Assembly: GCA_029244985.1 (NCBI GenBank)
Contig: JAQWQD010000041.1
Span: forward strand, 1-64,000
Origin: Gammaproteobacteria bacterium
GTDB lineage: Bacteria; Pseudomonadota; Gammaproteobacteria; Pseudomonadales; Pseudohongiellaceae
Reading direction: 5' to 3'
Length of the DNA stretch: 64,000 bases
Under the pieces are notes generated by a model. The model was not told the DNA's origin. It searched no databases and was given only the letters and a program-made list of their open reading frames with translations. Within the stretch, counting starts at the first letter, position 1, and each line of letters opens with the position of its first letter. Positions 1 to 2,299 of this stretch are shown in pieces. Position numbers and translations under genes: made by a program.

Positions 1-303
1 GAAGACGAGATCATCGACGACGCAAAGAGTTGGGATCTCGCCATCACTGGCTTGGGCGACTGAGGCAGCTGCTCGTCGTGCAGTTTGCATGACGCAATTA
101 GTAGTGAGCGAGTAGGAACACCTGCAGTTGGCGTGATGACCCGTAATTTCGTCACTGCCGCCGACCTTATGGCGAAGGTCTTAGGCATGCCAGACTATGT
201 TTACGCAATAATCGACCATCCGGTTAGTAGCGCCACCGAAAAAGAATTGAAGGCAAGAGCATTGCAAACCATGGCAGCTATCGACTCGCAGATCCTACTT
301 TAG
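1..303 (+). CDS. UGSC-family selenoprotein (C-terminal part, 5' end outside window)
   Basis: Frame 1 is open from the window edge to a TGA at 61-63 and stays open afterwards to TAG at 301-303. Reading the TGA as selenocysteine gives ...ITGLGD-U-GSCSSCSLHDA..., which is the diagnostic UGSC motif of the UGSC (seleno)protein family known from marine bacteria. The fragment has 100 residues with Sec at position 21, and further cysteines follow at 24 and 27. The downstream part (GTPAVGVMTRNF, then an acidic/hydrophobic helix) continues the same fold without a break. A bSECIS-like hairpin lies just after the UGA. The function is unknown; a thiol/selenol redox role is inferred from the motif. The alternative, a TTG-started 72-residue gene at 85, would discard the conserved motif. 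The call would fail if the genome lacks selABCD. Confidence 0.82.
74..94 (+). promoter_or_regulatory. bSECIS-like hairpin for UGA recoding
   Basis: Bases 74-81 pair with 87-94 in an 8-bp stem with one G-U pair, closing a five-base loop AGUUU at 82-86. The loop starts 18 nt after the in-frame UGA. A small apical loop with G in the first two positions followed by U, at about this distance, is what SelB recognises in bacterial SECIS elements. A competing stem, 65-72 with 80-88 and loop at 73-79, sits too close to the UGA and is less likely to be the active form. Confidence 0.65.
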
Positions 304-853: not shown

Positions 854-1411
854 TCAAGTCTGGGTTATAAAAGTTGAGGAAACGATTAAAACCACTAGAG
901 CTATTGGTATAGTAACGATCATTTTGTGACCGCGAATTGTTTTTAACTGAAGGCCCAGAAGCATCAATGGGACAAACAATAACACTAATAATTCTGGTGT
1001 AGTATTAGGGGAATAAAAGGCAGTGAGTTGCGACTGAATAAAGAATATAGCCATGACGATAAAAAATGGTTTACGACCTTCCAAATAATAATTATCTATA
1101 TCAGTCGAATTTTCTTTTAGCCGAGGAATTGGTAGGAAAACAGATATCAGATAGAGACTGGTTGTTGAAATAAAGGGACCGAGCATAAATTCCAATAAAC
1201 CGATTTCAGTAATGCCATAGAACATACCCCAGTAGCCCCAAAAATAACCAATCATCATATTAAGCACTAGAACGCAGAGCAGTGATTGAAACCATCCCTG
1301 CTTAATCCAATTGGTTACTTTGATTGTATAAGAAAATTTATCTAGGACATTCGCTATTGCCAGCCCCACTACGATAGCTACGATTATTGAACTAAATTCA
1401 AAAATACTCAT
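854..1411 (-). CDS. hypothetical multi-pass membrane protein
   Basis: 185 residues with about six hydrophobic segments (near 8-23, 42-65, 75-95, 115-133, 139-155 and 165-182). The only sizeable polar loop is LKENSTDIDNYYLEGRKP. It looks like a small inner-membrane protein of unknown function. I see no catalytic motif. It lies in a run of minus-strand small membrane or anchored proteins (391-2011) but is separated from its neighbours by about 100 bp on each side, so co-transcription is possible rather than shown. Confidence 0.65.
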   Translation of the reverse strand: MSIFEFSSIIVAIVVGLAIANVLDKFSYTIKVTNWIKQGWFQSLLCVLVLNMMIGYFWGYWGMFYGITEIGLLEFMLGPFISTTSLYLISVFLPIPRLKENSTDIDNYYLEGRKPFFIVMAIFFIQSQLTAFYSPNTTPELLVLLFVPLMLLGLQLKTIRGHKMIVTIPIALVVLIVSSTFITQT

Positions 1412-1516
1412 ACATTAATGCCCCTCCGAATCATATAACACTTGCTTAGTTTCTTCAGATTCATATTTGAACGATACTACAAATATCGGCTATCTGGGAT
1501 AGCTTTGGATGCACTA

Positions 1517-2011
1517 TCAATCAATACTTTCAGCATTACCGATAAGATCATAGAGGTGTTGGAACACAATAGAGTCAGTCCAGTCAGGATTTTCATCTAA
1601 AGTTTGTTTCCATAAAGCTAATGTTCCAGCTTCTTTTGCTTGGTTAATGAATATGTTTGCATCTCGATAAAACAGATTAAATGTTCTTTGCGAAAGCAAA
1701 CCTTCGTCATAACCTATTTCTCCAGCTTGCCATGCATTTATTGCTCTATATATTATTGATTGGACGCGCATATATTCGGTTGTCGAAGAAAAAGCTGAAG
1801 CACTCTGAATGAAGCATTCGGGACAGGAAATTATTGCTTCGTCCCATGATGCATAGGTGTTCATTAGTTGCCACTCTGTTTCAACTCTAGCTATTTTATT
1901 CGCCTGCCTTAGCTCATAGCCAACAAAAAATACAGACACAAGAACAGTAACTAATCCTACTATTTCAAATAAGCTAGGTTTTTTGATAACTGAATTAGTA
2001 TGATCAATCAT
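1517..2011 (-). CDS. hypothetical protein with N-terminal membrane anchor
   Basis: 164 residues. One membrane segment (about 14-33, SLFEIVGLVTVLVSVFFVGY) is followed by a helical soluble domain rich in aromatic residues (ELRQANKIARVETEWQLMNTY..., later RTFNLFYRDANIFINQAK). This layout is common in marine Gammaproteobacteria: an anchor, then a helical domain of about 110 residues that starts with E-L-R-Q-A-N. No function is known to me. A CPEC pair (about 58-61) could be a redox or metal site, but this is weak. Confidence 0.65.
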   Translation of the reverse strand: MIDHTNSVIKKPSLFEIVGLVTVLVSVFFVGYELRQANKIARVETEWQLMNTYASWDEAIISCPECFIQSASAFSSTTEYMRVQSIIYRAINAWQAGEIGYDEGLLSQRTFNLFYRDANIFINQAKEAGTLALWKQTLDENPDWTDSIVFQHLYDLIGNAESID

Positions 2012-2299
2012 GATGTGACCCCCTAAATAGATATTCTTCCAAAATTAATTTTTTTCAAATTCGTCTTTAGTAAATCTGCGTTGGTACTATAACAATAGAG
2101 AAACGCGAAAAAGCCTCCCCGGTGCTAATTATCAGGGCCGCTTCAATTCGTTTGAGGGGAGCTATTAACGTCTTGCTGGCACTACCAGTGGTACTACAAA
2201 CTGATAAATAGCGCTATAGGCCGGTAAAGTAAGGGAAATAGATTCCGCCCCTGGGCACCATCTTTAAATGAAGCCGCTAACAACCATAACTCTGCAGCC

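Follow-up and report, generated by a model that had tools for sequence, protein, structure and literature searches.

UGSC selenoproteins have been in print since at least 2008, when the GOS selenoproteome study, in its accessible text, tabulated them mostly as Sec proteins (255 Sec versus 21 Cys forms), suggested for them a "likely Trx-like fold" and already reported UGSC fused to another domain, "Unknown_1" (PMC2398784). In the available part of a later survey they rank among the commonest marine selenoproteins, with 8.2% of selenoprotein genes (PMC9402790). The accessible literature on the family gives no function for UGSC. Two further systems bear on the comparison, both as described in the available portions of PMC13188914: the GrdB active site, UxxCxxC, and the bacterial SECIS, for which bSECIS limits are set on loop (3–9 nt), stem (4–16 bp), spacing (16–37 nt) and folding energy (MFE ≤ −7.5), with a G in the first two loop positions.

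The gene studied here lies at the start of a 64,000-nucleotide stretch of DNA (the window). It shares both the sequence family (PF24696 / NF041046) and the UGSC motif with the UGSC proteins and, judged by sequence, adds a member to that known family. Two features set it apart from the family as published: (i) one genome carries two Sec paralogues, one of class A and one of class B; and (ii) a partner gene stands beside most of the copies examined.

The UGSC gene at the contig edge

The window comprises bases 1–64000 of contig C71 from a 3.2-Mb genome (76 contigs, 95.7% complete), and the contig start coincides with window base 1. A frame on the forward strand (1–303) passes a single TGA and ends at the TAG at 301–303. 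Its frame 1 translation is EDEIIDDAKSWDLAITGLGD-U-GSCSSCSLHDAISS...ILL, with ...GLGD-U-GSCSSCSLHD... around the UGA, and thus confirms the D-U-G-S-C reading through to a stop at 301 that a sequence-only reading had proposed. The fragment holds 100 codons, Sec being residue 21, followed by the stop (Table 1).

Table 1. Features of the UGSC locus in the window.
Feature	Position	Strand	Basis
Class-B UGSC selenoprotein gene, 3′ part	1..303	+	PF24696 match; contig start; full-length alignment
In-frame TGA as selenocysteine (putative), U of UGSCxxC	61..63	+	TGA in relatives; Cys in distant loci
Candidate bacterial SECIS stem-loop: stem 74–81/87–94 plus A82–U86	74..94	+	Folding, codon constraint, relatives
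Apical loop AGUUU (A82–U86 can pair, leaving GUU)	82..86	+	Fold; AGU invariant
Spurious TTG-start ORF, 72 aa, Sec codon ignored	85..303	+	ORF list

In a Pfam scan the fragment matched the UGSC family PF24696 with an E-value of 7.7e-33 and 114.5 bits (gathering cut-off 25 bits), covering profile positions 73–168 of 172; a close full-length relative in L053 scored 171.7 bits. Against NCBIfam NF041046 the fragment reached 94.9 bits versus an equivalog cut-off of 125, with only profile positions 50–143 of 147 present because the contig edge cuts the gene; the NCBIfam scan covered the window fragment, full-length relatives being scanned with Pfam only. In the nearest relative compared, G016 (L053/L031), the 173-residue protein has Sec at position 94, and its identity to the window protein is 98% where the two overlap. 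Since the contig starts at window base 1, about the first 73 codons are missing, a 5′ truncation by assembly. Judged from these alignments, the window gene is a real UGSC-family selenoprotein gene, truncated by the contig, with its 5′ half absent from the contig. Annotation can lose such a gene in three ways, by stopping at the UGA, by choosing a false TTG start or at a contig edge, and the false gene expected from position 85 is indeed there as an ORF for a gene caller to pick.

The genus has three UGSC classes: A (UGSCTSCSLHDIM), B (UGSCSSCSLHDA), to which the window gene belongs, and C (HUGSCTTGTVRDG). Class A and B proteins are 34–36% identical where compared with the first sequence, and all 17 aligned proteins share the U, G, S and C together with seven further columns. 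The class C loci (L046, L069 and L070) form a third Sec class, in which the order is UGSC, then partner, and a hairpin like that of classes A and B is absent from the SECIS place. Small proteins with an FVGYELRQ / FVGLEMQQ stretch are encoded downstream of UGSC both in the window (1517–2011, minus strand) and in the nearest relative (L053, 6474–6959, minus strand).

Decoding of the in-frame UGA

Is the UGA read as Sec? The search for selA, selB, selC and selD that the earlier reading had proposed uncovered a complete Sec machinery in the same genome. In profile searches selA scored 575.9 bits (cut-off 268), selB 398 (242), selD 289.4 (125) and tRNA-Sec 61.3 (47), the last in agreement with ARAGORN (tRNA-SeC). 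Contig C50 carries selA, selB, selD and tRNA-Sec along with a second, complete Sec UGSC gene.

UGSC is present in 58 of 61 genus genomes, the genome of the window included, and matched in 94 of 137 genomes of a family search that overlaps the genus sample. Homologues ending before the UGA had been named as what would speak against Sec; among the matches listed for genus and family there is none that spans the motif and does so, each of these having one TGA and running on, and where a listed match lacks the TGA, it is a short fragment that does not cover the motif. UGSC homologues align with the window gene on both sides of the UGA, and in a scan of named genomes all 33 distant loci have Cys at exactly the Sec column; because the search pattern required Cys, the scan establishes the existence of Cys forms but not their frequency. 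The UGSC identity proposed at the outset is borne out by both. Cys UGSC genes also occur in archaea, in Methanobacteriaceae (L099, L101, L102 and L104).

Selection was measured 3′ of the UGA between the window gene and ten class-B relatives. dN/dS was 0.043–0.143 in 8 of the 10 comparisons, these being the pairs with finite dS, two of them near saturation (1.9 and 3.2); in the remaining two dS was saturated. These ratios indicate purifying selection on the sequence that follows the UGA. The TGA itself is retained in two UGSC classes that have diverged from each other.

The hairpin that had been claimed, an 8-bp stem from +11 with an AGUUU loop at +19, was recovered by folding: the stem includes one G-U pair, 18 nt separate UGA and loop, and the MFE fold adds the pair A82–U86, giving 9 bp and a GUU loop. 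Applied by hand, all bSECIS limits include the window hairpin (stem 8–9 bp, G83, 18 nt, −12.0 kcal/mol). It is like the general bacterial SECIS model of PMC13188914 (as given in the Fig. 2A legend) in being a short stem-loop right after the UGA with a G early in the loop, and unlike it in having its own sequence and loop. Rfam gave no match at the gathering threshold over the whole window.

Is such a hairpin expected by chance? Against dinucleotide shuffles of 55–110 it is unremarkable (z −1.07; 32 of 200 fold as well). When synonymous codons were randomised with the protein held fixed, a procedure run on 12 genes, the window hairpin stood out (−12.0 kcal/mol, the 1000 variants averaging −4.99; z −2.83; 1.5% of them as low); the share as low was 5.5% for L037, 8–11% for class A, 21.5% for L044 and 25% for class C. 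The class A hairpin has lost the outer two pairs, and its 29-nt test segment, at −7.1, falls just short of the −7.5 limit. A stem of at least 7 bp occurs at the SECIS place in 31 of 32 Sec genes versus 7 of 33 Cys genes, and the AGU of the apical loop is invariant in 31/31 sequences. Codons +6, +7 and +9 (TGC, AGT, CAT) are identical in all 30 class A and B relatives, whereas synonymous positions beyond the hairpin differ among them; these frozen hairpin codons are, at the level of sequence, the best evidence for a SECIS. The near-constant helix leaves little covariation to detect: six of nine stem pairs never vary, one change is compensatory, and 53 of 500 shuffles do as well. A chance hairpin was rejected on the codon-fixed randomisation, the Sec versus Cys stem counts and the frozen codons.

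The UGA at 61–63 is almost certainly decoded as Sec, given its conservation in relatives and the machinery in the genome. SelB with Sec-tRNA(Sec), recruited by the stem-loop, would carry translation through the UGA; this recruitment step belongs to known bacterial Sec insertion, and the evidence for it here is from sequence only.

Two other readings of the TGA were weighed. It might be a genuine stop, which would make the gene a pseudogene, decayed or cut at the contig edge, and the frame beyond the TGA a relic. The window gene is indeed truncated at a contig edge, and two-frame UGSC copies are known in the relatives G013 and G404; however, the purifying selection downstream of the UGA, the TGA in all motif-covering matches listed (aligned to Cys elsewhere) and the Sec machinery of the genome make a genuine stop very improbable, and it was rejected on the low downstream dN/dS. 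Decoding as a residue other than Sec, by Trp suppression or a code change, found no positive support, the open frame alone being unable to discriminate, and is the least credible reading of all against a constrained hairpin sequence, the Cys occupying this column in the 33 loci of the Cys-requiring scan, and the tRNA-Sec, SelA, SelB and SelD of the genome, the complete machinery on which it was rejected. UGSC copies split over two frames were located in three genomes (G013:C11 233615–234029, G404:C20 13479–13938 and G040:C65 11880–12372); either the copies have decayed or the sequences contain errors.

The partner gene

Of 20 genus regions picked by hand, 17 have a partner gene that overlaps UGSC or is separated from it by at most 133 nt. 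The encoded protein, some 350 aa long (class A: about 480), carries the motif [TS]DG[FL]P[IV]. At L060 the partner is 3.7 kb from UGSC, and none was found at L059 and L067 under the ORF filter applied. Among the Cys loci a partner match was present in the fetched flanks of 32 of 33, L101 giving none; in L102 and L104 it is 1.2–1.4 kb away, and in L102 it is spread over two frames. Partner and UGSC form one ORF in three actinobacterial Cys loci (L085, L087 and L094). In the Natronomonas loci L093 and L095, partner genes flank the Cys UGSC gene on both sides.

In the genome of the window the class-A UGSC copy adjoins its partner. Another contig, C17, ends inside a partner gene that is 98% identical to the G016 partner over residues 1–188; since C17 ends in a class-B partner half, an assembly gap most probably divides the unit of the window gene. 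With G016 and C17 as guides, the window gene would be the second of a two-gene unit, a partner of about 357 aa followed by UGSC of 173 aa. The cut at the contig edge, the second Sec UGSC gene and the conserved partner gene all go beyond the sequence-only reading.

What is the partner? The one class A partner examined is extended at its N-terminus by a thioredoxin-like domain (PF13098, E 1.6e-4, short of the cut-off) and shows weak thioredoxin-type NCBIfam matches; beyond these, three partners scanned against Pfam and NCBIfam (E ≤ 0.01) gave no family. A sequence search of solved structures returned a best E-value of 0.56. Foldseek with the partner model (pLDDT 83.6) gave mainly poor fumarate hydratase matches (TMq ≤0.30, TMt ≤0.33, rmsd 12.1–18.5), which were excluded from the evidence. 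"Unknown_1" is probably this partner, as far as the accessible text of PMC2398784 describes it, and we make no claim of a first report for the partner gene; besides "Unknown_1", nothing partner-like appears in the accessible parts of PMC2398784, PMC13188914, PMC9312934, PMC7539508, PMC9402790 and PMC5029168. We consider it likely that UGSC and the partner form a two-subunit complex.

Fold, kinship and possible function

A structural model was obtained with AlphaFold2 for L083, a Cys homologue that shares 37% identity with the window fragment, from a 34-row alignment that included the window. In this model (pLDDT 90.6) strands and helices alternate, and the active Cys/Sec position lies between strand 86–92 and helix 95–110. 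The top Foldseek matches were mixed, with flavodoxins, FMN reductases, TIR domains and FtsZ as recurring entries, and the PDB matches were weak (TMq ≤0.51, TMt ≤0.56); a sequence search of solved structures with UGSC reached a best E-value of 0.71. By this model, the UGSC protein looks flavodoxin/Rossmann-like, not thioredoxin-like.

UGSC could be a distant cousin of GrdB/PrdB (glycine/proline reductase), its selenol cleaving a C–N or similar bond and the partner replacing the other subunits. This resemblance, at first a presumption, was then tested by profile–profile alignment (hhalign) of 6–7 PrdB-like sequences against a Cys-rich UGSC alignment (A4), a merged profile or a genus-only profile. 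The two families have a UxxC(xxC) site in common, and in the UGSC profile the UxxC with its following helix, a GIPT-like segment and, further on, a P-L-G / H-P segment align with GrdB/PrdB (PF07355). With A4 or the merged profile the Sec/Cys columns were in register; scores were 27.3, 28.6 and 26.0 (P 0.0066, 0.0045 and 0.012), and the merged-profile controls gave a maximum of 20.6 in 60 column shuffles and 22.9 for the reversed profile. In contrast, the genus-only profile scored 19.5 (P 0.067), the unrelated profile of the partner scored 21.1 against UGSC, and the HH probability stayed below 10% throughout (0.8–7.7%). PF07355 was absent from the UGSC Pfam scans, with no match for the window fragment up to E 1 or for 17 members up to E 10, under filters that drop most weak matches, and the partner matches no named family of such a kind. 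Unlike GrdB/PrdB, UGSC has about 173 aa, no match to the Pfam family and weak profile similarity. The test is shallow because few genomes have PF07355 (a match in 5 of 79 family and 5 of 274 class genomes, the genome of the window being in both). From the profiles, a weak UGSC–GrdB/PrdB link is possible, and the full proposal of a reductase cousin is rather unlikely.

The same genome contains two PF07355-like genes with an in-frame TGA (U-P-x-C): L107 793–1938 (−), on contig C71 near 108434–108649, and L108 1243 or 1270 to 2118 (+), on contig C37 near 3740, the latter scoring 20 bits, below the Pfam cut-off of 22. By sequence, these GrdB/PrdB-like genes are probably two further selenoproteins of this genome.

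A thioredoxin-like fold, as suggested in print, has the UxxC motif on its side, and the one class A partner with a thioredoxin-like N-terminal domain. Against it, strands and helices alternate in the model of the Cys homologue, which counts against the "likely Trx-like fold" put forward in PMC2398784, and no thioredoxin was among the best 50 Foldseek matches; the conserved partner and its fusion also argue against a free redoxin. Thus UGSC is set apart from thioredoxin-fold selenoproteins, by prediction only, and a thioredoxin-like fold is improbable.

Returning to the flavodoxin/Rossmann-like reading, what might the protein do? Acyl-CoA enzymes, counted as CoA-transferases, acyl-CoA dehydrogenase, enoyl-CoA hydratase, thiolase and acyl-CoA ligase, are encoded near 22 of 33 Cys loci, within flanks fetched for up to 5 kb on either side, and in 12 of the 20 Sec genus regions (9–13 kb), versus 1 of 6 10-kb window bins. 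The query enzymes were chosen after looking (ten neighbour proteins picked by eye), many loci come from related species and the control, of six window bins, is small; the acyl-CoA neighbourhood is therefore a lead. A role of UGSC in acyl-CoA or organic-acid metabolism is a tentative proposal, to which we give somewhat less than even chances.

In the mechanism that we propose, the UGSC subunit would have an alternating alpha/beta fold of flavodoxin/Rossmann-like type, its U-G-S-C-x-x-C redox site placed where a helix begins. Together with the partner it would make up a two-subunit oxidoreductase, fused in some actinobacteria, whose substrate may be an organic acid or acyl-CoA-linked. As a whole, the explanation that fits best, and which we hold to be very likely, is a Sec-decoded UGSC subunit from a two-gene unit split by an assembly gap, acting in a two-subunit oxidoreductase. 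A wider picture is possible but doubtful: a selenol/thiol enzyme of two subunits, in places fused, its active subunit flavodoxin/Rossmann-like and a distant relative of GrdB/PrdB, that would serve acyl-CoA or organic-acid breakdown with Sec in some bacteria and with Cys in other bacteria and in archaea.

The partner and the neighbourhood make the function of UGSC testable. Together, the partner, the fusions, the acyl-CoA neighbours and the predicted non-thioredoxin fold turn the family into a concrete two-protein system to purify and assay.
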